From: Mycobacterium sp.
Lineage (GTDB): Bacteria > Actinomycetota > Actinomycetes > Mycobacteriales > Mycobacteriaceae
Assembly: GCA_025965975.1 (NCBI GenBank)
Contig: JAOPVX010000041.1
Coordinates: 1 to 42,192 of the forward strand
Reading direction: 5' to 3'
Length of the DNA: 42,192 nt
A model generated the notes under the pieces. That model ran no database searches. It saw only the letters and a program-made list of their open reading frames with translations, and was not told the DNA's origin. The position numbers and the translations under genes were made by a program. How positions within the stretch are numbered: the first letter of the stretch is position 1; each line of letters begins with the position of its first letter. Positions 1 through 12,461 of this stretch are shown here, one piece after another.

Positions 1-1400
<1,400 letters not shown>

Positions 1401-1401
1401 C

Positions 1402-1448
1402 GTCCGGCGACGGTGCGGGCCGCGCAGCGGCCCGAGGAGGAGCCGGAC
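1402..1448. terminator. Nested hairpin, probable bidirectional terminator
   Basis: The gap between the converging accA3 and NmrA-like genes holds two nested perfect stems. GTCCGGC (1402-1408) pairs with GCCGGAC (1442-1448), and inside it GGGCCGC (1417-1423) pairs with GCGGCCC (1427-1433) across a 3-base loop. There is no long T-run, which is common for mycobacterial terminators. The position suggests that it serves both genes. Confidence 0.6.
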
Positions 1449-1456
1449 AGAAATAT

Positions 1457-2152
1457 CTAGTCGGGGGTCACCAGGCTGCGTTCGGCCAGCCGCGTGCCGA
1501 AGTAGTGGGCCTGCGGGTCGACGACGACGGTGGTGTCCTCAGCCCGATCAGCGAGCACCGCGCGTGCCATCTGCTCGAACGAGATCTTTTCCGGCCCACC
1601 GATATTCACGATGCCTCCAAGCGGCGCGGCGACCGCTGCGCGCGCGACCTCGGCCGCGACTTTGTCCGCGGCGACGGGCTGGATCAACGCATCGGGCACC
1701 CGCACCTCGTCGCCGATCGTCATGGATGCCGTGATGGCGTCGGTGAATTCGGCGAACTGCGTGGCGCGCACAATGGTGTACGGGATGCCGGATTCGGTGA
1801 TGACTTTCTCCTGAACGACCTTGGCCCTCATGTATCCGCTGTCGGGTAACTCGTCGGCCCCGACAATCGACAAGCAGACGTAATGGCCGACGCCGGCGCG
1901 CTTCGCAGCGTCGACCAGGTTGGTTGTCGACCTGGTGAAGAACTCCATGACAGGGTCGTCCTCGAACGACGGTGAGTTGACGACGTCGACGAGAGCGTCG
2001 GCGCCGTTCAGCGCCTCGGCCAGGCCGTCGCCGGTCAGCACGTCGACTCCCGACGCGCGCGACGCTGCGACGACGTCGTGCCCCTCGGCGGTCAGGAGGT
2101 CGACCACCTTGGTACCGATGAGACCGCTCGCCCCAACAACTGTGATCTTCAT
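1457..2152 (-). CDS. NAD(P)-binding NmrA-like/atypical SDR oxidoreductase
   Basis: The 231-residue cytosolic protein opens with the Rossmann motif VVGASGLIGTKVV (residues 4-16), typical of NmrA-like and atypical short-chain dehydrogenases that bind NAD(P)H. There is no SDR YxxxK catalytic pair in the usual place, so it may be a redox sensor or a quinone/isoflavone-type reductase. The ATG at 2152 gives a full N-terminal beta strand before the glycine motif. It converges on accA3 across a hairpin and is divergent from the small gene at 2175 with only 22 bases between them, so the two promoters must overlap. No substrate can be assigned from sequence. Confidence 0.8.
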   Translation of the reverse strand: MKITVVGASGLIGTKVVDLLTAEGHDVVAASRASGVDVLTGDGLAEALNGADALVDVVNSPSFEDDPVMEFFTRSTTNLVDAAKRAGVGHYVCLSIVGADELPDSGYMRAKVVQEKVITESGIPYTIVRATQFAEFTDAITASMTIGDEVRVPDALIQPVAADKVAAEVARAAVAAPLGGIVNIGGPEKISFEQMARAVLADRAEDTTVVVDPQAHYFGTRLAERSLVTPD

Positions 2153-2162
2153 GTGAAATGCC

Positions 2163-2168
2163 TACCAT
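2163..2168 (+). promoter_or_regulatory. -10 box (TACCAT) of a leaderless transcript
   Basis: TACCAT fits the mycobacterial TANNNT consensus and ends 6 bases before the GTG at 2175, so transcription would start at the start codon. No Shine-Dalgarno sequence is present. The same TACCAT arrangement occurs before the Mrr-like gene at 12546. Confidence 0.5.
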
Positions 2169-2174
2169 TGGCGC

Positions 2175-2504
2175 GTGCAGCCCGTGGAGATTAATTCTGG
2201 TGCGTGGTATCTGCGGGCCCCCCGGCAAGACGAGCTGATCGACGACCGTCCCGCGCTGGCCGCGCTGGGCGAGACCGCTCCCGACTACGTCGTCCGGTGC
2301 AGCGCCCGGTGGGCGTCGGATACCGGCTACACATGGGCGGTCTGCGAGCCGACCACCGGCGAGATGCTGGCCGAGGTCACCCTCGACCCGGCGACGGCGG
2401 AGGTGCGCACCCGTGCCCGCGACGGCCACGACGACGCGGCGGCGACCGCGGCGCAGTCGGTATGCCGCTTCGCGGGGGCCGTTCTTGGCCTCACGATCAG
2501 CTGA
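2175..2504 (+). CDS. Conserved hypothetical protein, 109 aa
   Basis: I do not recognise a named family. The protein is soluble, with no signal peptide or membrane segment. Its first third (LRAPRQDELIDDRPAL) resembles the opening strand and helix of GNAT acetyltransferases, but the chain is too short for a complete GNAT fold and lacks the acetyl-CoA loop. The C-terminal part is Ala-rich and helical. The GTG start is supported by the leaderless -10 box at 2163. Its last 8 bases overlap the 3' end of the convergent MobA-like gene. Codon use is like that of neighbouring genes, so it is likely real. Confidence 0.65.
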   Translation: MQPVEINSGAWYLRAPRQDELIDDRPALAALGETAPDYVVRCSARWASDTGYTWAVCEPTTGEMLAEVTLDPATAEVRTRARDGHDDAAATAAQSVCRFAGAVLGLTIS

Positions 2505-3039
2505 CGTCGATGTCGGCGCCGGACGCCAGATCGGCGCAATCCACCGCAATCACATCCGTGCGGCCAACCAGGAATGCCCGGGCGCCCTGGTCGCCGCGCA
2601 GCCCGTCGAGCAGATCCGGCCAGTGCCTGCGCGCAATGACAACGGGATGTCCGGGCCGGTGACCGTAGCGGGCGCGGGCGAGGCCCGACACCGACGAACA
2701 CGCCGCCGCCAGCACCCGCATGACCACGTCGGCGCCCACGTCGGGCGTGTCGACGGTGTGCACCACTGCATAGTCGGCTTCGATCGCGCGCAGCCCGGCG
2801 CGCACCGACGCGCTGAGCCCATCCGCCCAGTCTCGTGCGACCACCGCCCGCGCGGGCGCAGGCACGTCGACCACCGCGGCCCCCAACACCACGACGACGT
2901 CGTCGCACCCTCCGTCGGCCAGTGCGCTCACGCAGGCGCGCAGCCAGCGGCCGTCGTCGGCGAGCACTTTTGGCATGCCATAGCGGGTCCCCGCCCCCGC
3001 GGCAAGCAGCACACCGGCCACGGTGGTGCTCTTCGGCAT
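2497..3039 (-). CDS. MobA-like molybdenum-cofactor nucleotidyltransferase
   Basis: The 180-residue protein begins with the NTP-transferase signature LLAAGAGTRYGMPK (about residues 11-24), in which the GxGTRxGxxK loop binds the nucleotide triphosphate. Members of this clade (MocA/MobA-like) attach CMP or GMP to molybdopterin, often for a xanthine-dehydrogenase-type enzyme. The open frame extends upstream, but the ATG at 3039 places the signature at the N-terminus as in the family. It is divergent from the urate-degradation genes, and a molybdenum hydroxylase lies 6 kb away (8926-12461). That suggests, but does not prove, that it matures that enzyme's cofactor. CMP versus GMP specificity is not determined here. 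Confidence 0.8.
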   Translation of the reverse strand: MPKSTTVAGVLLAAGAGTRYGMPKVLADDGRWLRACVSALADGGCDDVVVVLGAAVVDVPAPARAVVARDWADGLSASVRAGLRAIEADYAVVHTVDTPDVGADVVMRVLAAACSSVSGLARARYGHRPGHPVVIARRHWPDLLDGLRGDQGARAFLVGRTDVIAVDCADLASGADIDVS

Positions 3040-3072
3040 GCGAACAGTGTGAACCTGCCCGATTCTGGATCG

Positions 3073-3537
3073 ATGCGCAACCCGGAGGTGGACCAGCTGC
3101 TCGAGGTGTGCGCGTCGGCGATGTGGGCGCAGCGGGTCGCAGCCGGCGGCCCGTACTCCGACGTCGATGCGCTGCTCGAGCAGGCCGATCGGGTGCTCGC
3201 CGGGCTGCCCAACGCCGAGATCGACGCCGCACTTGCCGGCCATCCGCGCATCGGCGGCCAGATCGACAACCCGTCGTCGGCCCGTGAGCAGGCGCGCGTG
3301 CAAAATGCCACCGAACAAGTCCGCACCGGCCTCGCCGACAAAAACCGGGCGTACGAAGACAAGTTCGGCTATGTCTACCTGGTGTGCGCAGGCGGCCGCA
3401 GCGCCGAGGAGCTGCTGGACAACCTGACTGAAAGGCTGGACAACGACGCCGAGACCGAACGGCGCGTCGTGCGCATCGAGCTGATGAAGATCAACCGACA
3501 ACGCCTGAAACGACTGTCCAAAGAGGAGGGGCCATGA
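3073..3537 (+). CDS. 2-oxo-4-hydroxy-4-carboxy-5-ureidoimidazoline (OHCU) decarboxylase
   Basis: This enzyme performs the last step of urate oxidation, decarboxylating OHCU to S-allantoin in the cytosol. The 154-residue protein is all-helical and carries the family motif GHPRIGG (His57 to Gly62), whose histidine is catalytic, followed by NKAYEDKFGY-like and CAGGRSAEELL segments typical of the C-terminal half. I chose the ATG at 3073, which has a GATTCT box 6 bases upstream that could serve a leaderless start; a GTG at 3049 in the same frame is the alternative. The stop overlaps the next gene's start as ATGA, so translation is coupled. It is the first gene of a three-gene uricolytic operon. 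Confidence 0.92.
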   Translation: MRNPEVDQLLEVCASAMWAQRVAAGGPYSDVDALLEQADRVLAGLPNAEIDAALAGHPRIGGQIDNPSSAREQARVQNATEQVRTGLADKNRAYEDKFGYVYLVCAGGRSAEELLDNLTERLDNDAETERRVVRIELMKINRQRLKRLSKEEGP

Positions 3538-3857
3538 CTCAGATCGGCACCCACGTTCTCGACGCGACCAGCGGCATGCCCGCCGCGGGCGTGCCGGTGA
3601 CCCTGACCGGCGCCGACGGTGCCGCAACGGCCGAAGGCGTCACCGACGACGACGGCCGGATCGGCGACCTCTACACCGGTGAATTGTCGGGCGTGTGCCG
3701 GTTACGTTTCGACACCGCAACCTATTTCGCTGCCCACGGCGTCACCGGTTTCTATCCCGAAATCGTCATCGCCTTCGAAATCAGTGGGACAGCAACCAGA
3801 TACCACGTGCCGCTGCTGCTGTCTCCGTACGCCTATTCGACCTACCGAGGGAGCTGA
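3534..3857 (+). CDS. 5-hydroxyisourate hydrolase (transthyretin-like)
   Basis: The enzyme hydrolyses 5-hydroxyisourate, the product of urate oxidase, to OHCU, which the preceding gene's product then decarboxylates. The 107-residue length is normal for the family. Diagnostic features are the N-terminal THVLD (residues 6-10, with the catalytic histidine), the RYHVPLLLSPYAYSTYRGS end, and the invariant C-terminal tetrapeptide YRGS. The ATG at 3534 overlaps the upstream stop by four bases. The next gene starts 2 bases after its stop. The function is clear from both motifs and context. Confidence 0.95.
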   Translation: MTQIGTHVLDATSGMPAAGVPVTLTGADGAATAEGVTDDDGRIGDLYTGELSGVCRLRFDTATYFAAHGVTGFYPEIVIAFEISGTATRYHVPLLLSPYAYSTYRGS

Positions 3858-3859
3858 AC

Positions 3860-4771
3860 GTGTCGGGCATCATCCTGGGCAAGACTCAATACGGCAAGGC
3901 CGAGAACCGCGTGGTCCGGATCTATCGCGACTCACCTCGGCACGAGATTCGCGACATCAACGTATCCACCTGCCTGCGAGGCGATTTCAGTGCGGCGTAC
4001 CTGGCCGGTGACCAGTCAGATGTGCTGCCCACCGATACACAGAAGCAGACGGTCTACGCGTACGCCAAGGAGAAGGGACTGACGTCGATCGAGAACTACG
4101 GCCTTGAACTCGCCCGCCACTTCGTGCACGACGTCGGCCCGGTCCAGGCGGCACGCATCGAGATTGACGAATTCGCTTGGCAGCGTGTCGTTGTCGACGG
4201 TGTCGAACACGACCACACCTGGATCCGCAAGGGTGAAGAGGTCCGCACCGCGGCGATAACCGTCGACGGCGACAGCGAATGGGTGGTCGGAGGGCTGAAG
4301 GATCTCGTCATCCTCAAGTCAACGGGCTCGGAGTTCGCAGGCTTTCTCACCGACCCGTACACCGTTCTCGAACCCACCCACGATCGGGTGATGGCGACGT
4401 CCCTGGTGGCACAGTGGCGGTTCAGCAGCCCCGCAGGGGAATGGTCAGTCGACTGGGACGGTGTTTACGCGGGAGTCAAGAACGAGCTGGTGAAACAGTA
4501 TGCGGTGGTCCATTCGCTGGCCCTGCAGCAGACGCTGTACGAGATGGGCAAGGCCGTGCTGGAGCGATACCCGGTGATCGCGGAGGTGCGGCTGTCGGCG
4601 CCGAACAGGCATCACTTCCGCTACGACCTGTCGCGATTTGGCTTGGAAAACAACAACGAAGTGTTCAACGCCGACGACCGTCCGTACGGCTTGATACAGG
4701 CGACGGTGACCCGCGACGACGCGACCGCCATGGGGGCCGCGTGGGACAGTCAGCTCGGATGGCTGTGCTGA
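3860..4771 (+). CDS. Urate oxidase (uricase), cofactor-independent
   Basis: It oxidises urate to 5-hydroxyisourate with O2 and without metal or flavin. The 303-residue protein matches the family length. YGKAENR (residues 11-17) carries the catalytic lysine, and LPTDTQKQTVYAYAKE carries the threonine that completes the catalytic pair. NRHHF and DRPYGLIQATV are further conserved stretches in the C-terminal half. The start is GTG at 3860, two bases after the hiuH stop, giving MSGIILGKTQYGK; the longer open frame upstream overlaps hiuH and is not used. The gene ends the operon and is followed by a doubled hairpin. M. tuberculosis lacks this operon as far as I recall. Confidence 0.95.
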   Translation: MSGIILGKTQYGKAENRVVRIYRDSPRHEIRDINVSTCLRGDFSAAYLAGDQSDVLPTDTQKQTVYAYAKEKGLTSIENYGLELARHFVHDVGPVQAARIEIDEFAWQRVVVDGVEHDHTWIRKGEEVRTAAITVDGDSEWVVGGLKDLVILKSTGSEFAGFLTDPYTVLEPTHDRVMATSLVAQWRFSSPAGEWSVDWDGVYAGVKNELVKQYAVVHSLALQQTLYEMGKAVLERYPVIAEVRLSAPNRHHFRYDLSRFGLENNNEVFNADDRPYGLIQATVTRDDATAMGAAWDSQLGWLC

Positions 4772-4772
4772 G

Positions 4773-4815
4773 TTGCCGGCTCGGCCGGCGTGCTGAATTG
4801 CCGGCTCGGCCGGCG
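4773..4815. terminator. Tandem duplicated hairpin after urate oxidase
   Basis: A 25-base unit is repeated directly at 4773 and 4798. Each copy contains GCCGGC-TCG-GCCGGC, a 6-bp stem with a 3-base loop (4775-4789 and 4800-4814). The stop codon of urate oxidase overlaps the first copy's edge. The doubled hairpin without a T-run is a plausible terminator; the duplication looks recent because the copies differ at only a few bases. Confidence 0.55.
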
Positions 4816-4851
4816 TCCTGAGCGGGCATTATTAAAAATCCCTAACGCCGA

Positions 4852-4881
4852 TTGATCAGGGCCCGCCTTTCGGCGTAAGGT
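4852..4881 (+). promoter_or_regulatory. Putative SigA-type promoter for a leader or small RNA
   Basis: TTGATC (4852-4857) and TAAGGT (4876-4881) are separated by 18 bases and fit a housekeeping promoter. The predicted start is near 4888, just ahead of a structured, terminator-ended segment. The -10 fits TANNNT; the -35 keeps TTGA of the consensus. Confidence 0.45.
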
Positions 4882-4887
4882 TCAGAA

Positions 4888-4986
4888 CAGGTTGAGTTCA
4901 CAGCCGGCCGGAAACGTCATCGACGTGCAGGGGACCGAACTCTCGCCCTGCAGCGGAGGCTTTGAGGACGCAGGGCCTATTTTTTT
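4888..4986 (+). ncRNA. Putative structured leader or small RNA upstream of the STAS gene
   Basis: No open frame on either strand of this gap looks coding. The segment can fold as follows: GAGTTC (4894-4899) with GAACTC (4937-4942), enclosing a hairpin ACGTC (4914-4918) / GACGT (4922-4926). CCCTGC (4946-4951) can pair either with GCAGGG upstream (4927-4932) or with GCAGGG downstream (4970-4975). The downstream pairing forms an intrinsic terminator. The first pairing and the terminator exclude one another, as in attenuators and riboswitches. I do not recognise a known riboswitch class. It could equally be a free small RNA of about 100 bases. The end is well defined; the start is inferred from the promoter at 4852. 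Confidence 0.5.
4945..4986 (+). terminator. Intrinsic terminator with a run of seven T
   Basis: GCCCTGC (4945-4951) pairs with GCAGGGC (4970-4976) over an 18-base loop, then CTA and seven T (4980-4986). It is the only stem in the window followed by so long a T-run and lies 49 bases before the STAS start codon. Confidence 0.75.
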
Positions 4987-5035
4987 GACGTGAGCCACAG
5001 TACGAAATCCCGTATTCCGACTGATGGAGTCCACA

Positions 5036-5479
5036 ATGTCTACTGCTACACATGCTCTTTCGGCTTCGCCGGAGTCTCTCATCGAACCCACCGACTGCCA
5101 CACGGCACATTTCGCCACCCAGTGGCTGCAACCGTCAATGGCAGTGATCACCGCCAACGGCGAACTCGACGCGGCAAACGCGCAGGAGTTCGTCGACTAC
5201 GCGCTGCGCCACGCCGCCAACACCGATCGCCTGGTGCTGGATCTGACCGGCGTGGACTTCTTCGGTACCGCGGGCTTTTCTGCCCTGCACACCGTGAACG
5301 TGCGCTGCGCCGCGGAGAAGATCGAATGGGCCCTGACGCCAAGCCAGGCCGTCACCCGGTTGCTGCGGATCTGCGATCCCGATTCGGCCTTGCCGATCTG
5401 CACCAGCGTCGAAACCGCCCTGTCGGCCGTACAGGGCGAGCCACGCCGGCTACTGCAACTGATCTCGAAGTCGCGCTAA
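5036..5479 (+). CDS. STAS-domain anti-sigma factor antagonist (RsfA/RsfB type)
   Basis: The 147-residue cytosolic protein is a single STAS domain. VLDLTGVDFFGTAGFSALHTV contains the FGTAG turn where SpoIIAA-type proteins carry the phosphorylatable Ser/Thr; here the residue is Thr. When unphosphorylated, such proteins bind the anti-sigma factor and free the sigma factor. GGAG at 5026-5029 lies 6 bases before the ATG at 5036, so I prefer this start over the ATG at 5024, whose codon overlaps the ribosome site. It converges on sigF with a 30-base overlap of coding 3' ends. An RNA terminator upstream may control it. RsbW at 6235-6669 is the natural partner. Confidence 0.9.
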   Translation: MSTATHALSASPESLIEPTDCHTAHFATQWLQPSMAVITANGELDAANAQEFVDYALRHAANTDRLVLDLTGVDFFGTAGFSALHTVNVRCAAEKIEWALTPSQAVTRLLRICDPDSALPICTSVETALSAVQGEPRRLLQLISKSR

Positions 5480-6238
5480 GGATTTCGCCAACAGCCGGGA
5501 CACGTGCATCTGCGAGATGCCGACCCGCTCGGCGATCTGCGTCTGCGTCAACGACTCGAAGAATCGCAGCAGCAGCACGGTCCGCTCCCGCTCCGGCAAC
5601 GCAGCAAGCAAGGGCCGCAACGATTCCCGGTTGTCGATCTGATCCAGGCCGGTATCGACATCGCCGAGCGTGTCGGCGATCGCGGGTGCATCTTCGCTGC
5701 CGCTGCCGCCACTGTCGATCGACAGCGTGTTGTAGGAGCTGCCCGCGACAAGGCCCTCGATCACCTCGTCGCGGTCCATGTCCAGCTCGGCGGCAAGCTC
5801 CGTGGCGGTCGGCGCGCGGCCCAGCCGCTGTGACAGGTCACCCGTGGCGGCGCCCAGCCTCAGGTGCAGCTCCTTGAGCCGGCGCGGCACCTTGACCGAC
5901 CAGCTGTTGTCGCGAAAGTGCCTGCGAACCTCACCCATGATCGTCGGCACCGCGAACGACACGAAATCCGACCCGGCATTGACATCGAACCGGATCACCG
6001 CGTTGACCAGGCCCACACGGGCGACCTGCACCAGGTCGTCGCGCGGCTCGCCTCGCCCGTCGAACCTGCGGGCGATGTGGTCGGCCAGCGGCAGGCATCG
6101 TTCCACGATCCGGTCGCGTTGACGCTGGAACTGCGCCGACGAATCGAGCAGATCCTCGAGCTCGCGGAACATGTCGGCGACGTCCGCGTATTCAGAGTTC
6201 GATCGTGACGACGAACCCTGGGCTGACGACGATGTCAC
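5450..6238 (-). CDS. sigF: RNA polymerase sigma factor SigF
   Basis: The 262-residue SigB/SigF-family sigma factor directs stress and stationary-phase transcription. Region 2 (RCLPLADHIARRFDGRGEPRDDLVQVARVGLVNAVIRFD), region 3 (PRRLKELHLRLGAATGDLSQRLGRAPTATEL) and region 4 (ERERTVLLLRFFESLTQTQIAERVGISQMHVSRLL) are all intact. The GTG at 6238 is the start: it overlaps the rsbW stop as GTGA and gives a protein the size of M. tuberculosis SigF; the longer open frame upstream is the rsbW coding region read in another frame. It is co-transcribed with rsbW from a SigF-type promoter at 6697-6723, indicating auto-regulation. Confidence 0.97.
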   Translation of the reverse strand: MTSSSAQGSSSRSNSEYADVADMFRELEDLLDSSAQFQRQRDRIVERCLPLADHIARRFDGRGEPRDDLVQVARVGLVNAVIRFDVNAGSDFVSFAVPTIMGEVRRHFRDNSWSVKVPRRLKELHLRLGAATGDLSQRLGRAPTATELAAELDMDRDEVIEGLVAGSSYNTLSIDSGGSGSEDAPAIADTLGDVDTGLDQIDNRESLRPLLAALPERERTVLLLRFFESLTQTQIAERVGISQMHVSRLLAKSLARLRDQLQ

Positions 6239-6669
6239 CGCAGCGAACTCGCTCGCCTCGTCGTCATGGAGATCCCGAACACCGGCCCCTCCTCGGGGCC
6301 CTGTCCGTTTTGGAAGGTGCGCACCTCGTCGGTCAGCGAGCTCAGCACGTGCCAGCTGAAGCTGCCCGGCGCAAGGATGTCCGGGCTCTTGCACGTGGTC
6401 GACGCGTCGATGACCACCGCGTCCTCGCGAGGATCGACCACCAGCAACAGCGTCGAGTCGGGTACCGAGGACCGGATCAGCCGGGTACACGCTTCGTCGA
6501 CCGCAAGGCGCAGATCGGCGACGGCGTCGAAATCGAGGTCCTCGAACGTGCCGACGGCGGCGACAAGGGTGCGCAGCACCGCGAGGTTCTCCAGCTTGGC
6601 CGCGACCCGGAGTTCAACCGACCGGCCGCTGCGCAACTGCCCATTGTTCAAGTTCGCGACGTCGGCCAC
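6235..6669 (-). CDS. rsbW: Anti-sigma factor RsbW (UsfX) for SigF
   Basis: The 144-residue GHKL-fold protein binds and inhibits SigF, and in related systems phosphorylates its antagonists. DFDAVADLRLAVDEACTRLI carries the N-box region (DExxT) that holds ATP/Mg, and DILAPGSFSWHVLSSLTDEV is the C-terminal family block. I chose the GTG at 6669, which has GGGAGG (6674-6679) 4 bases upstream and gives the length of M. tuberculosis RsbW (145); the open frame runs farther back through the promoter, which rules those codons out if the SigF-type promoter is real. The stop overlaps the sigF start by four bases, so the two are made in step. Confidence 0.95.
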   Translation of the reverse strand: MADVANLNNGQLRSGRSVELRVAAKLENLAVLRTLVAAVGTFEDLDFDAVADLRLAVDEACTRLIRSSVPDSTLLLVVDPREDAVVIDASTTCKSPDILAPGSFSWHVLSSLTDEVRTFQNGQGPEEGPVFGISMTTRRASSLR

Positions 6670-6696
6670 GTGACCTCCCGGCAAATTCCTGGCGAG

Positions 6697-6723
6697 ATTA
6701 CCCCAGGTCGAATCCCAACTAAC
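6697..6723 (-). promoter_or_regulatory. SigF-type promoter of rsbW-sigF
   Basis: Read on the minus strand, GTTA (6723-6720) is followed by exactly 16 bases and GGGTAAT (6703-6697). This matches the mycobacterial SigF pattern GTTT-N15-17-GGGTA. The expected start is about 20 bases before the rsbW GTG. Confidence 0.8.
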
Positions 6724-6755
6724 CATCGACGCTCCGATGATCGGTGGGCGGAGAC

Positions 6756-6781
6756 GTGTGGCAATGGTGACGGCGGGGTAA
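6756..6781 (+). promoter_or_regulatory. SigF-type promoter of the 53-aa membrane protein
   Basis: GTGT (6756-6759), 16 bases, GGGTAA (6776-6781). The -10 element is exact and the -35 differs in one base from GTTT. It points away from the rsbW promoter and ends 9 bases before the ATG at 6791. Confidence 0.6.
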
Positions 6782-6790
6782 CCCCACGTC

Positions 6791-6952
6791 ATGAACAAGA
6801 TTGCGGCACGGAGTCAGGTCGACGACGCAACCGACACCCGACGTCTGCGCCGGATACTCATCGCCATCGGGCTGGTGCTTGTCGTAGTGATCCTGGTGGG
6901 GGTGGCGATATACGCCGGCGCGTTCATCATGCTGGCGCCGATGATGCAGTGA
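6791..6952 (+). CDS. Small single-pass membrane protein, 53 aa
   Basis: The gene is short but well formed: ATG at 6791, TGA at 6950-6952. Residues 1-21 are polar and basic (TRRLRRIL at the boundary), residues 22-48 form one long hydrophobic helix (LIAIGLVLVVVILVGVAIYAGAF), and the tail is MLAPMMQ. The charge pattern predicts the N-terminus in the cytosol. It has a SigF-type promoter directly upstream and a 9-bp hairpin directly downstream, so it is a monocistronic unit divergent from rsbW-sigF. I do not know a family name. The role is unknown; membership of the SigF regulon is inferred. Confidence 0.7.
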   Translation: MNKIAARSQVDDATDTRRLRRILIAIGLVLVVVILVGVAIYAGAFIMLAPMMQ

Positions 6953-6982
6953 CGCCGCCGATGACGAAGGCTCCGGCGGCGT
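6952..6982 (+). terminator. Hairpin after the 53-aa membrane protein gene
   Basis: ACGCCGCCG (6952-6960) and CGGCGGCGT (6974-6982) form a perfect 9-bp stem with a 13-base loop starting at the last base of the stop codon. There is no T-run. The remaining 7000-7134 stretch shows no gene that I can support. Confidence 0.5.
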
Positions 6983-7134
6983 GCCGTCTGATGTCCTCTT
7001 CACCATGTTGCACGTGCAGTACCCCGTGGTGGCCGCCCGTCAAACATGCGACTTCGCCACACCGCCGTCCGCGGCCAAGGCAAGCGCCGGATGGGCCGCG
7101 CGCGCGGGTCCTCCTTGCAGTCACCGATCGCCAC

Positions 7135-7161
7135 GTTTAGCCGATGACGCCGAGCGGGAAC
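7135..7161 (+). promoter_or_regulatory. Weak SigF-like promoter before the csbD-like gene
   Basis: GTTT (7135-7138), 17 bases, GGGAAC (7156-7161). The -35 is exact; the -10 has A in place of T at the fourth position. It lies 100 bases before the csbD-like start, and CsbD proteins are general-stress regulon members elsewhere. Confidence 0.4.
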
Positions 7162-7260
7162 CCAAGTATCTGTGGGGAGATTCCCCTCGTGTGGCCCGAA
7201 AGGGCCCCGCGCTCAAGAAGTGGGCAGCGACCGATCCAAGGCAGTAGCGGAAAGGCAGGC

Positions 7261-7506
7261 ATGACCGAGAAGAAGAACACTGGCCCGGAAGAAGGCATCA
7301 AGGGCGTCGTCGAGGACGTCAAGGGCAAGGCCAAGGAAGCGGTCGGCACCGTGACAGGCCGTAAGGACGTGGTCCGCGAGGGCAAGGCTCAGCAGGACAA
7401 GGCCGATGCCCAAAAGGACGCCGCGAAAAAGGAAGCGCAGGCCGAAGCGGCTCGCGCAGGCGCCAAGGCTGCCGAGAAACGCCAGGAGGCGCATCAGCGG
7501 CCTTAA
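7261..7506 (+). CDS. CsbD-like stress protein, 81 aa
   Basis: The protein is small, very hydrophilic and Lys/Ala/Glu-rich, with the CsbD-type core GIKGVVEDVKGKAKEAVGTVTGRKD (residues 12-36) and a long charged helical tail (QQDKADAQKDAAKKEAQAEAARAGAKAAEK) that is probably a coiled coil or disordered. CsbD is controlled by the general stress sigma factor in Bacillus; its molecular role is not established. The ATG at 7261 has AAAGG 5-9 bases upstream; the open frame begins earlier but lacks the family pattern there. A strong intrinsic terminator follows. A weak SigF-like promoter lies upstream. Confidence 0.85.
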   Translation: MTEKKNTGPEEGIKGVVEDVKGKAKEAVGTVTGRKDVVREGKAQQDKADAQKDAAKKEAQAEAARAGAKAAEKRQEAHQRP

Positions 7507-7520
7507 CAGTTCGATAGAAA

Positions 7521-7553
7521 GGGCCCAGCCGGGCAAACCGGCTGGGCCCTTTT
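7521..7553. terminator. Perfect 12-bp intrinsic terminator
   Basis: GGGCCCAGCCGG (7521-7532) pairs with CCGGCTGGGCCC (7538-7549) around a 5-base loop, followed by TTTT. On the minus strand the stem is preceded by A's, so it can also stop transcription of the convergent usfY gene. Confidence 0.9.
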
Positions 7554-7562
7554 CTTGTGCCG

Positions 7563-7871
7563 TTAACTGCTGGGGCGCTGTCGGTGCGCGTCGGGATGCT
7601 CCGCGTACCAACGTTCTTCGATTCGCCGCACCCGCCGGTGTTCTACGAGCAGCCAGCCCGCGCCGACGATGAACCCGGCGCCAGCCAGTGATGCCAGCGT
7701 CAAACCGACGTCATGGTGGCTGGTGGCGAACGCCGCAAGGCACGAAACGAATAGCACAAGGGTGACGCCGATCACGACGAGCCCCGGCATCATTTTGTTG
7801 TCCGTCATCGACTCGCCGGCATGCGGCCGCGTTGTCCTCGCGTGGTCGATGGGATCCTTCGGGCCCTTCAT
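7563..7871 (-). CDS. usfY: UsfY-like membrane protein
   Basis: The 102-residue protein has an N-terminal cytosolic segment (DPIDHARTTRPHAGES), two hydrophobic helices (LVVIGVTLVLFVSCLAAFA and LTLASLAGAGFIVGAGWLLV) joined by a short HHDVG loop, and a basic tail with EHRRVRRIEERWYAEHP. This layout and the RTTRPxAGES and EHRRxxxIxxRWYxEHP blocks match UsfY, encoded next to usfX-sigF in M. tuberculosis (from memory). Function is unknown. The ATG at 7871 has GAGGAG (7877-7882) 5 bases upstream, so the longer frame is not used. A clear SigF-type promoter lies at 7933-7957. Confidence 0.8.
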   Translation of the reverse strand: MKGPKDPIDHARTTRPHAGESMTDNKMMPGLVVIGVTLVLFVSCLAAFATSHHDVGLTLASLAGAGFIVGAGWLLVEHRRVRRIEERWYAEHPDAHRQRPSS

Positions 7872-7932
7872 CGGTACTCCTCTCTCGGCATACCTACGCC
7901 CGCCCAACATGGGCTGATTTCAACGGTAGATC

Positions 7933-7957
7933 TACCCGACTGCGTTGTGGGAGAAAC
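7933..7957 (-). promoter_or_regulatory. SigF-type promoter of usfY
   Basis: Minus strand: GTTT (7957-7954), 16 bases, GGGTA (7937-7933). Both elements are exact matches to the SigF pattern. It would give a leader of roughly 50 bases carrying the GAGGAG ribosome site. Confidence 0.8.
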
Positions 7958-8053
7958 TGTCACTGAAACGACCGCCAGCACTCCCGAATTCGCTGCTAGA
8001 AGGCCGTACTTAGACGTGGGAGAGAATCCCATGGCCGGGGAAGCCGGTAAACC

Positions 8054-8734
8054 TCAGGATCCGACGCGCATATGCGCCGTCAGCAGCAACCTGTCGTACA
8101 CGGCCCGGGCAGGCAACACCTCGTCGTAGGAGAGCTTGAGAAAGTCTTTCGCGATTTGCTCAGCGAGCGCGCGCAACTTGGTGTTGGTCTCCTGTGAACG
8201 CCATCTGAGCAGCTCGAACGCGGAGTCGGCATTGATTCGGTAGATGAGCATGAGCATGCCTTTGGCCTGTTCGATGCCGCTACGGGCCTCGGCGATCTCG
8301 GCCACCACCTCGGTGACGATCTCGTCGTGGGTCTCCTTCATCGACGGTGTCACGTCGACGTAGAAGCCGTGCGTGCCGATCACCTCGCCGGCGTCGTCGA
8401 ATATCTGGTCGCCGACCACCACCACATGGTGGACCTCACCTCGGGTGTCGACGATGCGGTGCCGGGTGGAAAACGCGCCGGACGTGCGCCGGATCTCGTC
8501 CAGAGTGGCGGCGACCTGGCCGTAGTCGTCGGGATGCTTATGCGAAAGCACCAGCTCGGTGGTCGGGTGCACCGTGCCGGGGTCGTACCCGTGCATGCGC
8601 TCGACCTGCGGCGACCACTCCCAGCGTTCGTCGGTGAAATAGAACCGGAACCAGCCGACACGCTGGGGCTCGCCCCCCGCCAAAGCGTGCTCGACGGGCG
8701 TTTGCCCCTCGAGGTCGGTCAGCTCATCGGTCAT
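8054..8734 (-). CDS. PAS-ANTAR response regulator (RNA-binding antiterminator type)
   Basis: The 226-residue cytosolic protein has a PAS fold at about residues 26-132 (GWFRFYFTDERWEWSPQVERMHGYDPG through IGTHGFYVDVTPS) and a C-terminal ANTAR domain (residues 150-205, RSGIEQAKGMLMLIYRINADSAFELLRWRSQETNTKL). ANTAR domains bind paired hairpins in mRNA and prevent termination; PAS domains sense ligands or redox state. There is no receiver domain. The ATG at 8734 is preceded by TAATCT at 7 bases, a leaderless start. Its placement beside the SigF island and an RNA terminator element at 4945 is notable, although no ANTAR dual-hexaloop target has been identified here. The 7960-8053 gap downstream shows one short hairpin (8017-8031) and no gene. 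Confidence 0.9.
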   Translation of the reverse strand: MTDELTDLEGQTPVEHALAGGEPQRVGWFRFYFTDERWEWSPQVERMHGYDPGTVHPTTELVLSHKHPDDYGQVAATLDEIRRTSGAFSTRHRIVDTRGEVHHVVVVGDQIFDDAGEVIGTHGFYVDVTPSMKETHDEIVTEVVAEIAEARSGIEQAKGMLMLIYRINADSAFELLRWRSQETNTKLRALAEQIAKDFLKLSYDEVLPARAVYDRLLLTAHMRVGS

Positions 8735-8741
8735 GCTGTGC

Positions 8742-8757
8742 AGATTAACCCGGTTAA
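8742..8757 (-). promoter_or_regulatory. Leaderless -10 box overlapped by a 13-bp palindrome
   Basis: Minus strand TAATCT (8747-8742) ends 7 bases before the ATG at 8734. TTAACCCGGTTAA (8745-8757), a palindrome around one central base, overlaps the -10 box, a position suited to a repressor or autoregulator. Confidence 0.5.
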
Positions 8758-8925
8758 CAACAGCGCGGCATCGAAGCAGATCCAGCCGTTCGTTAATCGG
8801 ACCGATCCGCCGGCGGCGCCAGGCGTCGGGTCTGGCATGTCGGGGTCGGCGCCCTCGAACGTGATCGATGGTGGTCCACCGTTTGTTGCAGTGCGGGCGC
8901 CGCGCCGCTTGATTACGTTCGATTG

Positions 8926-9750
8926 GTGGACCTCAACACGGTCGAGGTGGTCGACGCGCCGACCAGCCGCGAGGAGCTGTGGCCGCTGGGCCCCGGCGAT
9001 GCGCTGCTGGCGGGCGGCACGTGGTTGTTCTCCGAGCCGCAACCGCATCTGCGCAGGCTGGTAGACATCACCGGGTTGGGCTGGCGGCCGGTTGTGTTGG
9101 ACGACAACGGTATCGAGCTGGCGGCCACGTGCACGATCGCGGAGGTGGCGCGGCTGTCTTCTACGTTGCCCGCGGACTGGGTGGCCGCGCCGCTGCTGCG
9201 CCGGTGCTGCACGGCGCTGCTGGCGTCATTCAAGATCTGGGGCAGCGCGACCATCGGCGGCAACATCTGCCTGTCGTTCCCGGCAGGCGCGATGATCTCG
9301 CTGGCCTCGGCGCTGGACGGGCGCGTGCGGGTGTGGCGCTCCGACGGCAGCGACTACGAGCTGCCAGTCGCCGCGTTCGTCACCGGCACGTCCACCAACG
9401 TGATGGCCGTCGGCGACGTGCTGCGGTCGGTGCACCTGCCCGCCGCCGCGATGCGGGCGCGCACCGCGTTCGGCAAGCTGGCGCCCTCGCCGCTGGGCCG
9501 CTCCGGTGTCGTGGTCATCGGCCGCCGCAACACGGCGGGCGACGGTGGCCGATTCGTGCTGTCGGTGACCGCTGCCACGGCGCGGCCGTTCGTGTTCGAC
9601 TTTCCGTCGCTTCCCGACGGTGACGCGCTGCGTGCCGCACACGCCACGATTCCCGACGACGCGTGGACCCGTGACCCGCACGGCGATCCGGACTGGCGCC
9701 GAGCGATGACGTTGCTGCTGGCCGAGCAGATCCGCACGGAGCTGGCATGA
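8926..9750 (+). CDS. Molybdenum hydroxylase, FAD-binding subunit (XdhB/CoxM type)
   Basis: This is the middle electron-transfer subunit of a xanthine-dehydrogenase-type enzyme, passing electrons from the iron-sulfur clusters to FAD and then NAD or another acceptor. FAD-binding motifs LLAGGTWLFSE (residues 27-37) and SATIGGNICLSFPAG are present, with the C-terminal CO-dehydrogenase flavoprotein domain after residue 160. At 274 residues it is typical. I chose the GTG at 8926, which has TACGTT 6 bases upstream; the TTG at 8923 is one codon earlier. The last four bases (ATGA) overlap the catalytic subunit gene. The 8735-8925 gap holds only promoters. Confidence 0.88.
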   Translation: MDLNTVEVVDAPTSREELWPLGPGDALLAGGTWLFSEPQPHLRRLVDITGLGWRPVVLDDNGIELAATCTIAEVARLSSTLPADWVAAPLLRRCCTALLASFKIWGSATIGGNICLSFPAGAMISLASALDGRVRVWRSDGSDYELPVAAFVTGTSTNVMAVGDVLRSVHLPAAAMRARTAFGKLAPSPLGRSGVVVIGRRNTAGDGGRFVLSVTAATARPFVFDFPSLPDGDALRAAHATIPDDAWTRDPHGDPDWRRAMTLLLAEQIRTELA

Positions 9751-12461
9751 GCATCATCGTCAACGGCGTTGTGGTGCACGGTGATCCGCGGCCGGGACAG
9801 TGCCTGCGCACATTTCTACGGGAACGCGGCCGGTTCGAGGTGAAGACGGGTTGCGACGCAGGCGATTGCGGCGCGTGTTCGGTGCTGGTCGACGGCGCAG
9901 CGGTGCACTCGTGCGTGTATCCCGCATTCCGGGCCGACGGGCGCAACGTGACGACGGTGGCGGGGCTCGGCACCGACGACGATCTGCACCCGATGCAGCG
10001 GCGGTTCGTCGAGGCGGCCGGGTTTCAGTGCGGGTTCTGCACGGCCGGAATGGTGACGACGGCGGCGGCGTTCACGACGGAGCAGCTGGCGGAGCCGCTG
10101 GAGCACCTGAAGGGCAGCCTGTGCCGCTGCACCGGTTATCGGGCGATCACCGACGCGCTGGAAGGCAAGGTCAACATCGAGAAGCCCGCCGGCGCCGGTC
10201 GGTCGGTCGGCGCTCCCGCCGGTGTCGCGGTGGTCACGGGCGCCGAGCAGTACACGATGGACTGTGCCCCCCACGGTCTGCTGCATCTGGCGGTGCTGTC
10301 CAGCCCGGTGCCGCATGCGCGCATCGTGTCGATCGACACCGCCGCCGCGGAAGCCATGCCCGGCGTGCATCTGGTGCTGACATATCGCGACAGCCCGCCA
10401 GTCGCGTTCTCCACCGGCCGCCACCAGAACCGCACCGACGACCCCGACGACACCTACGTACTCGACGACACGATCAGGTTCGTCGGCCAGCGGGTGGCCG
10501 CCGTCGTCGCCGACAGCCTCGCGACCGCCGAAAAGGCATGCCGGGTAATCGGTGTGGAGTACGAGGTGCTGCACGCGGTGTTCGATCCGGAACTGGCGCG
10601 CCGCCCGGGTGCGCCGCTGCTGCACGACGGAAAGGGCCCTGGCGCGCGCATCGCCGACGCGTCATGCAACGTCGTCGCCGAGCTGCACGGTGAGGTGGGC
10701 GATGTCGAGGCGGCGGTGGCGGCGGCACTGACCGCAGGCGGTCAGGTAGTGCGCGGACGGTGGACCACCCAGCGCGTCCAGCACACGCATCTGGAGACCC
10801 ACGGGTGCACAGGTTGGCGAGACGACCAGGGCCGGTTGGTGATTCGGACTAGCTCACAGGTGCCGTTCTTGGTGCGCGACGAGTTGTGCCATGTCTTCGG
10901 GTTGAGCCGCGACGAGGTGCAGGTGTTCACCAAACGGGTGGGCGGCGGGTTCGGCGGCAAACAGGAGATGCTCGTCGAGGACCTGGTGGCGCTGGCCGTG
11001 CTGCGGCTCGGCCAGCCGGTGCGCTACGAGTTCAGCCGCTCGGACGAATTCACCATGGCGCCGTGCCGGCACCCCTACCGGGTGGATGTGACGGCGGCAG
11101 CCGGCGCGGATGGCGTGCTGACGGCGTTGGCGGTCGACGTGCTGATGGATGCGGGCGCGTACGGAAATCACAGCCCGGGCGTGATGTATCACGGCTGCAG
11201 CGAGTCGATGTCGGTGTACCGCTGTCCGAACAAGCGCGTCGACGCGCAGGCCGTCTACACCAACAACGTGCCGTCTGGGGCGTTCCGCGGATACGGGCTC
11301 GGCCAGGTGATGTTCGCAGTGGAGTCGGCGCTCGACGAGCTGGGGCGGCGGCTCGGGCTGGACTCGTTCGAGCTGCGTCGGCGCAATGTCGTGGTTCCGG
11401 GTGATGCGTTCGCGGATTGGCATGTGCTGCAAGATGATCTGATGTTCGGCAGCTATGGCCTTGACCAGTGCCTTGACCTGGCGCAGGCTGCGCTGGCGCG
11501 CGGCAACGGCGTGGCGGCGCCGGATGGCCCGCAGTGGCGGGTCGGGGATGGCATGGCCATCGCGATGATCGCGACCACTCCGCCGCACGGTCACATCGGT
11601 GAGGCGTCGGTCGCACTGCAGCCCGACGGGATGTACCGCCTGTCGGTCGGCACCGCGGAGTTCGGCAACGGCACGACCACCGTGCACGCGCAGCTGGCCG
11701 CGACGGAGCTGAACACCGCGACCGACCGGGTGTCCATTCGTCAATCGGACACGGACGCAACCGGTCACGACACCGGCGCGTTCGGCTCGACGGGCACGGT
11801 GGTGGCGGGGCGGGCCGTACTGGCCGCCTGCCGGGAACTGCGCGGCGCGATCGTGTCTGCGGCCGCCGCACTCACGGGCTTGCCACCGTCGTCGTGCACA
11901 CTCGGCACGCACGGCGTGCATTGCGGCGATCGGTTCGTCGACTTCGCCGACCTGCCGGGGCCGCTTACCGGGCGCGGCCGTCACGACGGAACACCGCGGT
12001 CGGTGGCGTTCAACGTGCAGGCCTTCCGAGTCGCGGTCAACACCGACACCGGTCAGGTTCAGATCCTGCAGTCCATTCAGGCCGCCGACGCCGGGGTGGT
12101 GGTCAACCCTCAGCAGTGCCGCGGTCAGGTGGAAGGCGGTGTGGCGCAGGCGATCGGATCGGCACTCTACGAAGAGATGCACATCGGGCCGGACGGCACC
12201 GTGCTGACCCAGACACTGCGCAATTACCACATCCCACAGTTGGCCGATGTTCCGCAGACCGAGGTGTATTTTGCGGACACGTACGACGAGCTCGGCCCGC
12301 TCGGCGCCAAGTCGATGAGCGAATCGCCATACAACCCGGTGGCTCCCGCGCTCGCCAACGCCATCGCCCGCGCGTGCGGCGCGCGCATGCACGAGCTCCC
12401 AATGACACCCGCGCGCGTCTGGCGGGCAGTCAAGCGCGAGCTGGGCCCACACGCAAGCTAG
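9747..12461 (+). CDS. Molybdenum hydroxylase, fused 2Fe-2S and molybdopterin-binding subunit (probable xanthine dehydrogenase)
   Basis: The 904-residue protein joins two chains that are separate in many bacteria. Residues 1-75 are a plant-type ferredoxin domain (Cys36, 41, 44, 56). Residues 80-150 bind the second cluster (Cys95, 98, 126, 128 in CGFC and CRC). From about residue 175 it is the molybdopterin domain, with VGGGFGGKQ and SGAFRGYG loops and a C-terminal GAKSMSESP whose Glu is the expected catalytic base. The FAD chain is the preceding gene. Nearby urate oxidase genes and a MobA-like gene point to hypoxanthine/xanthine as substrate; another N-heterocycle is possible. No XdhC-type sulfurase chaperone is in the window. 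Confidence 0.88.
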   Translation: MSIIVNGVVVHGDPRPGQCLRTFLRERGRFEVKTGCDAGDCGACSVLVDGAAVHSCVYPAFRADGRNVTTVAGLGTDDDLHPMQRRFVEAAGFQCGFCTAGMVTTAAAFTTEQLAEPLEHLKGSLCRCTGYRAITDALEGKVNIEKPAGAGRSVGAPAGVAVVTGAEQYTMDCAPHGLLHLAVLSSPVPHARIVSIDTAAAEAMPGVHLVLTYRDSPPVAFSTGRHQNRTDDPDDTYVLDDTIRFVGQRVAAVVADSLATAEKACRVIGVEYEVLHAVFDPELARRPGAPLLHDGKGPGARIADASCNVVAELHGEVGDVEAAVAAALTAGGQVVRGRWTTQRVQHTHLETHGCTGWRDDQGRLVIRTSSQVPFLVRDELCHVFGLSRDEVQVFTKRVGGGFGGKQEMLVEDLVALAVLRLGQPVRYEFSRSDEFTMAPCRHPYRVDVTAAAGADGVLTALAVDVLMDAGAYGNHSPGVMYHGCSESMSVYRCPNKRVDAQAVYTNNVPSGAFRGYGLGQVMFAVESALDELGRRLGLDSFELRRRNVVVPGDAFADWHVLQDDLMFGSYGLDQCLDLAQAALARGNGVAAPDGPQWRVGDGMAIAMIATTPPHGHIGEASVALQPDGMYRLSVGTAEFGNGTTTVHAQLAATELNTATDRVSIRQSDTDATGHDTGAFGSTGTVVAGRAVLAACRELRGAIVSAAAALTGLPPSSCTLGTHGVHCGDRFVDFADLPGPLTGRGRHDGTPRSVAFNVQAFRVAVNTDTGQVQILQSIQAADAGVVVNPQQCRGQVEGGVAQAIGSALYEEMHIGPDGTVLTQTLRNYHIPQLADVPQTEVYFADTYDELGPLGAKSMSESPYNPVAPALANAIARACGARMHELPMTPARVWRAVKRELGPHAS

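Follow-up and report, generated by a model that had tools for sequence, protein, structure and literature searches.

The window analysed here is a stretch of 42,192 nucleotides from a Mycobacterium-type draft assembly (G000; 7.44 Mb, 449 contigs). It contains a STAS-domain gene and a sigF-type sigma factor gene in convergent (tail-to-tail) orientation, and the two open reading frames overlap by 30 bases (5450-5479). The region from about 4888 to 5035 is the whole 5' leader of the STAS gene that starts at 5036, and it is linked to a promoter. The locus comprises the following features.

4852 to 4881, plus strand: SigA/SigB-like promoter with -35 TTGATC (4852-4857), an 18-nt spacer and -10 TAAGGT (4876-4881), assigned from the sequence and the conserved -10
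4888 (about) to 5035, plus strand: 5' leader RNA, spanning the predicted transcript start to the last base ahead of the ATG, supported by covariance model R1 and BLAST relatives
5036 to 5479, plus strand: STAS-domain gene with start codon ATG at 5036, encoding an anti-anti-sigma-type product of 147 aa
5450 to 6490, minus strand: sigF-type sigma factor ORF, start not settled, with Pfam Sigma70 regions 2, 3 and 4

The initial annotation had assigned an anti-anti-sigma factor to the gene downstream of the promoter, and the assignment was borne out: beside sigF, the window protein matched Pfam STAS (PF01740) at 2.9e-15, with 56.4 bits against a cut-off of 22.6. The same Pfam cut-off was apparently also passed by the leader genes of the eight genomes that were checked. 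With the NCBIfam model ant_ant_sig, the window protein reached 48.9 bits, below its cut-off of 53.45, and solved anti-sigma antagonists including RsfB (8ih8, E 4e-4) matched it weakly. Among the 118 loci listed as exact 18-mer matches, a SigF homologue lay within the retrieved sequence in 77, the leader started 470-720 nt from the 3' end of a convergent sigF in 75, and AccA3 was present in 68. On these neighbour counts, the STAS gene usually lies between accA3 and sigF. Judged from this position, the STAS protein may act on the SigF switch.

Architecture of the leader

The leader can be divided into the following parts.

4890 to 4905, plus strand: H1, the 5'-terminal hairpin and near-invariant core, with GGUUG (4890-4894), loop AGUUCA (4895-4900) and CAGCC (4901-4905)
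4914 to 4919, plus strand: 5' strand of helix P2, ACGUCA, able to pair with 4986-4991 or, locally, as ACGUC with GACGU at 4922-4926 (alignments A4 and A2)
4927 to 4951, plus strand: variable stem-loop GCAGGG...CCCTGC, whose loop GAACUC (4937-4942) is complementary to GAGUUC of H1 (sequence)
4957 to 4986, plus strand: stem AGGCUUUG/CAGGGCCU with a U7 tail, as far as tested resembling a terminator only in this species (pairing in A2)
4986 to 4991, plus strand: 3' strand of helix P2, UGACGU (alignments A4 and A2)
4995 to 5027, plus strand: H3, in which CCA (4995-4997) and CAGU (4998-5001) pair with ACUG (5020-5023) and UGG (5025-5027), leaving a bulged A at 5024 (A4)

H3 overlaps the Shine-Dalgarno sequence GGAG (5026-5029). 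Two stretches of the leader, both missed by the initial annotation, are conserved far beyond the source species: its first 18 nt and the ~25 nt that lead up to the start codon. Between H1 and the latter stretch, the leader sequences diverge widely. In 26 aligned leaders (one strand), the conserved frame begins with CAGGUUGAGUUCACAGCC, continues with ACGUCAUCGACG and the variable stem, and then runs through GGCUUUGAG..GCAGGGCC, UGACGUGARCCACAGUACGAA and ACUGAUGGAGUCACA to the start codon. Five sequence types of leader were distinguished, which fold differently in the middle and have the first hairpin in common. At other loci in the same genomes, shortened or rebuilt versions of the leader stand ahead of other STAS genes.

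H1 is near-invariant. Among the 150 representatives that could be parsed (of 152), its stem reads GGTTG in all 150 and CAGCC in 149, a conservation that is due in part to selection because the representatives were picked by R1 or by the 18-mer. The loop in these representatives has 6 nt in 143 cases, 7 in six and 5 in one. Across 253 parsed copies, 42 loop types were counted; the loop begins with A, and the stem letters are almost fixed. The loop thus varies in length and sequence while the stem stays, which favours an RNA hairpin, but not via covariation.

The promoter and its position relative to H1

The SigA-like promoter of the initial annotation is supported by its -10 box, which is conserved in 151/151 leaders. 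In all of these representatives, a TANNNT motif ends 5-9 nt before the first C of the leader, the distance being 6 nt in 89, 5 in 39, 7 in 18, 4 leaders having 8 and one having 9. Their consensus reads ttgt...gg.gta.ggttc, with a -10 of the TAnnGT type. A simple sigma-70 scan left the promoter at 4852-4881 out of its list, although the -10 box is conserved. A SigF-dependent promoter was also considered and rejected, since the consensus of the 151 leaders is unlike the SigF consensus GTTT-N15-17-GGGTA given in PMC7390352.

When the -10 box and the hairpin were searched as one pattern in 12 genomes, 25 matches were obtained and the reversed pattern gave 0. Twenty-four of the 25 precede a STAS gene, and the exception (L436) resembles coding sequence. 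Without the promoter, the hairpin pattern gave 36 matches in the 12 genomes versus 8 for its reverse, and 20 of the 29 matches that were retrieved were STAS leaders. The promoter-locked matches, 25 versus 0 and mostly before STAS, therefore couple the hairpin to the start of transcription in these genes and set it apart from a scattered motif.

Two other explanations of H1 have to be weighed at this point. The main rival is that H1 is a DNA operator. In this view, GGTTG-N6-CAGCC, spanning +1 to +18, would be an imperfect inverted repeat bound by a transcription factor that blocks the promoter or adjusts its activity, and RNA folding would be incidental. On the one hand, the position of H1 is fixed relative to the -10 box, and its sequence, including an asymmetric T/G position, is stricter than pairing requires. 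On the other hand, a spacer of 5, 6 or 7 nt would be unusual for a dimer site, and other promoters do not generally share the motif, as the counts above indicate. We consider an operator rather unlikely. H1 might also be a mere shield of the 5' end of the mRNA against decay, with no dedicated partner, which would suit its place at the predicted 5' end. However, any stable hairpin would do for this purpose, and the near-invariant sequence and the restriction to one family ask for more; we regard such a shield as improbable.

Distribution across genomes

Occurrence of the leader is limited to a single STAS subfamily and, in essence, to Mycobacterium. A BLAST search with positions 4840-5030 (191-nt query) gave matches at E <= 0.001 in 137 of 198 genomes of the genus, the source genome included. 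The covariance model R1 was made from 28 leaders, with 147 positions and 20 pairs; it scores the window leader at 144.7 bits, a match by construction since this leader is among the 28 used for training. R1 had a match in 258 of 297 Mycobacterium genomes and, counting the better assemblies only, in 245 of 275. A search of 298 genomes of the order gave 34 with a match, 33 of them Mycobacterium (by genus, 2/76). The sole match outside Mycobacterium (G354) was weak, with E 0.008, and its locus is without a STAS gene.

An exact 18-mer scan of 84,980 species returned at least 118 stretches. The 118 loci listed were mycobacterial in 113 cases and belonged to an Actinomycetota MAG in one and to other bacteria in four (L135, L140, L160 and L165), and these last four have neither the -10 box nor a STAS gene. 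Named species in which the leader was found include Mycolicibacterium peregrinum and M. septicum. By a rough estimate, about 7 exact matches to the 18-mer are expected by chance in 257 Gb. The exact 18-mer was not found in viral contigs, and the 191-nt query had no match in plasmids. A BLAST search of the source assembly for a second copy returned only the window itself and two chance-like 16-nt matches, and the same assembly also holds three divergent STAS genes that bear the hairpin (L397, L402 and L403).

The initial annotation recognised no known class in this element, in agreement with Rfam, which gave 0 matches at gathering score in the whole window. In the region 4780-5080, at E <= 5, the only Rfam match was salivarius-1, with 15.5 bits against a gathering score of 50. 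In the open-licence literature, we found no paper describing such a leader.

Association with one STAS subfamily

The 309 leader elements, comprising a first set and later ones and covering 80 of the 118 listed 18-mer loci, collapsed to 262 distinct copies, and in 255 of them a gene of the STAS subfamily lies in the next 600 nt. Among the seven copies without STAS, four reach the end of the retrieved sequence (L077, L085, L093 and L126) and three are weak matches (L340, L341 and L055 at 4328). The STAS profile used here was built from 51 genes behind leaders, so that it tests for this subfamily. At the exact 18-mer sites, 120 in the 118 listed loci, a STAS gene lies downstream in 109; of the other 11 among the matches listed, six reach the sequence end, four are the non-mycobacterial ones and one is L159. 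The latter, at 2787 in a Mycobacterium MAG, has the promoter and the leader start, but the 700 nt that follow contain no STAS gene.

The association was also seen when the search started from the protein. At E <= 1e-20, 23 STAS homologues were found in 13 genomes, and 22 of them have the hairpin upstream: 19 with an upstream R1 match and three with the hairpin alone (L397, L402 and L403). The exception is the close homologue L387 (G000:C404:27900-28274), whose matching region contains one in-frame stop and which resembles a copy that has decayed or been displaced. The leader of L405, a weaker homologue (E 7e-19), measures only about 55 nt and consists of the hairpin and little else. L405 apart, an upstream region could be read for 15 of the weaker homologues, and all of these lack the hairpin. 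Four genomes without an R1 match (G029, G064, G026 and G149) contain distant STAS genes only, with a best E of 7e-14. The STAS proteins behind leaders diverge to about 40% identity while the hairpin stays almost unchanged. The association of leader and STAS gene could be simple co-inheritance within one subfamily.

Folding and covariation

The initial annotation described the region after the promoter as a structured element. For the leader as a whole this description found some support; taken alone, 4880-4990 folds little better than shuffled sequences (z -0.78, with 36 of 200 shuffles as good). Over 147 leaders, the mean folding z was -1.38 on the sense strand versus -0.80 on the antisense strand (P 1e-10, a value that ignores relatedness).

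Covariation was examined in two alignments, A4 with 100 distinct rows fitted to the model, and A2, which was made with plain MAFFT from leaders of the window's type (type A), independently of the model. In A4, 92.2% of cells are paired, and 34 cells are changed on both sides. Shuffles gave 13.4, none of 500 being as high, and sliding the alignment gave 5-14. This signal stems from P2 and H3, and H1 contributes none. The P2 helix CGUCA/UGACG is paired in 93.1% of cells in A4, with changes on both sides in three of its five pairs, and H3 is paired in 90.5% of cells, with three of its seven pairs so changed. In A2, the long-range helix P2 is almost invariant (98.7% paired), the stem AGGCUUUG/CAGGGCCU is paired in 92.3% of cells with changes on one side only, and measures of covariation are mostly no higher than in shuffles. 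In the H1 stem, no pair is changed on both sides in either alignment; because this stem is too invariant for covariation, its pairing as RNA is not proven.

The strand asymmetry of folding and the covariation in A4 would suit a structured cis-regulatory leader RNA; A2 for the most part does not, and H1 is invariant. The DNA operator discussed above would leave both the sense-strand folding bias and the covarying distal helices unexplained.

The predicted pairing of the Shine-Dalgarno sequence is 0.704 versus 0.689 in shuffles (n=142), which is no excess, and for pairing between the H1 loop and the Shine-Dalgarno sequence 26 of 60 permutations were as good. Unlike in the main family, such pairing is strong in L402, L403 and L405, three of the four divergent paralogues that were inspected: in each, the H1 loop reads AGCUCC and can pair with the Shine-Dalgarno sequence of the same gene, with duplex energies of -10 to -11. 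A complement of the H1 loop occurs in the middle region of 128 of 245 leaders versus 61 in shuffles, and no permutation over the whole set (0/60) did as well. A possible kissing of the H1 loop with GAACUC was not matched by compensatory changes in variant loops, for which 19 of 60 permutations scored equally well. The alternative pairing of ACGUC with 4922-4926 or 4987-4991 is kept in many type-A leaders and might act as a switch.

Considering H3, one may think of a translational switch that needs no protein, either an RNA thermometer or a riboswitch for a ligand; the helix at the Shine-Dalgarno sequence would then open on a signal. The changes on both sides of H3 and P2 in A4 would fit such a switch, and STAS proteins serve stress responses. 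However, a conserved core of the size of an aptamer is lacking, only H1 being common to all leader types, and the leader of L405 would leave little room for it. Together with Shine-Dalgarno pairing at the level of shuffles and no match to a riboswitch in Rfam, this makes a protein-free switch doubtful, and we assign it a low probability.

The terminator-like stem and the ANTAR hypothesis

The promoter and the sequence motifs of the initial annotation are present where it had placed them, with GCAGGG at 4927-4932, CCCTGC at 4946-4951, a second GCAGGG at 4970-4975 and T7 at 4980-4986. From these motifs, a regulated terminator or attenuator, or else a small RNA ending at 4986, had been proposed. 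In this species a U7 does follow the stem, and the site has the longest T-run of the eight terminator-like sites listed; as a class, eight such sites in positions 1-12000 are no more than chance (5.8, sd 2.6, in shuffles). Relatives rarely keep it: at least 5 T in 8 nt are found at the T-run in 5 of 35 related (type-A) leaders, and the hexamer could switch between the two mutually exclusive GCAGGG/CCCTGC pairings in only 8 of 37. The conserved stretch also continues to the start codon, where an independent small RNA would have ended before it. Since conservation runs to the start codon, and the T-run and the switch are rarely kept, the region is neither a stand-alone attenuator nor an independent small RNA, and we consider control by termination very improbable.

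The consensus of ANTAR targets consists of two adjacent hairpins with hexaloops that have A1 and G4. H1 shares with it a hexaloop starting with A, but differs in having a single hexaloop and in loop position 4, which is G in only 8 of 143 hexaloops; it was rejected as an ANTAR target. A second conserved hexaloop was not seen in the leader alignments. A PAS-ANTAR protein is encoded at 8054-8734 on the minus strand, 3 kb from the leader. The link between the two, raised as a speculation in the initial annotation, did not hold, given these loops and a PAS-ANTAR homologue in only 10 of 135 longer loci.

Proposed mechanism and significance

Considering the promoter linkage, the restriction to one subfamily and genus, the near-invariant H1, the sense-strand folding and the covariation of some helices, all obtained by computation, we propose a leader RNA whose 5'-terminal H1 is read by a trans-acting factor, with an output on translation or mRNA stability. 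Our confidence in this proposal is about even. What we infer is the action of H1 at the RNA level, its binding by a factor and the effect on expression. Transcription is predicted to start at the SigA-like promoter, a few bases ahead of H1. The hairpin (GGUUG-N6-CAGCC), most likely as RNA, would then be the landing site of the factor, which may be an RNA-binding protein or part of the transcription or decay machinery. The folded remainder and the helix beside the Shine-Dalgarno sequence could relay binding to translation or mRNA stability. In this way, all genes of the STAS subfamily in one cell might be set together via a common factor. More tentatively, and with less than even confidence, the invariant hairpin may be read by a dedicated and new mycobacterial factor, so that a post-transcriptional STAS regulon would set the supply of antagonists of the SigF switch.

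Cis-regulatory 5' leaders of bacteria include riboswitches and protein-binding leaders such as those of ribosomal-protein autoregulation. The STAS leader resembles them in being structured, in lying between a housekeeping-type promoter and a start codon, and in having helices near the Shine-Dalgarno sequence. It differs in its universal part, which consists of a hairpin of 16 nt placed at the predicted 5' end, and in the high variability of the rest. It is of a known kind, unusual for its tiny invariant 5'-terminal core and its fast-changing body. Our results point to an undescribed control element of the mycobacterial stress response. SigF-type switches of mycobacteria have been studied as protein partner-switching, and a near-invariant hairpin would add a layer of RNA (or DNA). 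No Hfq is known from mycobacteria, and new RNA-recognition systems in such bacteria are of general interest.

According to PMC7693655, RsfA and RsfB were shown in M. smegmatis to be antagonists of the SigF switch. They are STAS-type antagonists acting on this switch and share the STAS type with the window protein; however, the window protein belongs to a separate subfamily, and its closeness to RsfB is the weak match to 8ih8. In PMC7390352, the sole gene down at 48 h in a phoH2 deletion of M. smegmatis is the STAS antagonist gene MSMEG_0586, and PhoH2 is reported there to act on sigF mRNA, not on a STAS leader. What PhoH2 shares with our proposal is post-transcriptional control near SigF. The MSMEG_0586 result may be a lead to the candidate factor.

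Two minor observations concern the region upstream of the promoter. At 4771-4822, directly 3' of the stop codon of a uricase gene, lie two near-identical tandem copies of GCCGGCTCGGCCGGC-type inverted repeats, possibly the terminator region of uricase. Immediately ahead of the promoter, at 4840-4861, the minus strand has a stem that resembles a terminator and carries a T-rich tail; antisense transcripts arriving from the sigF side could terminate here.
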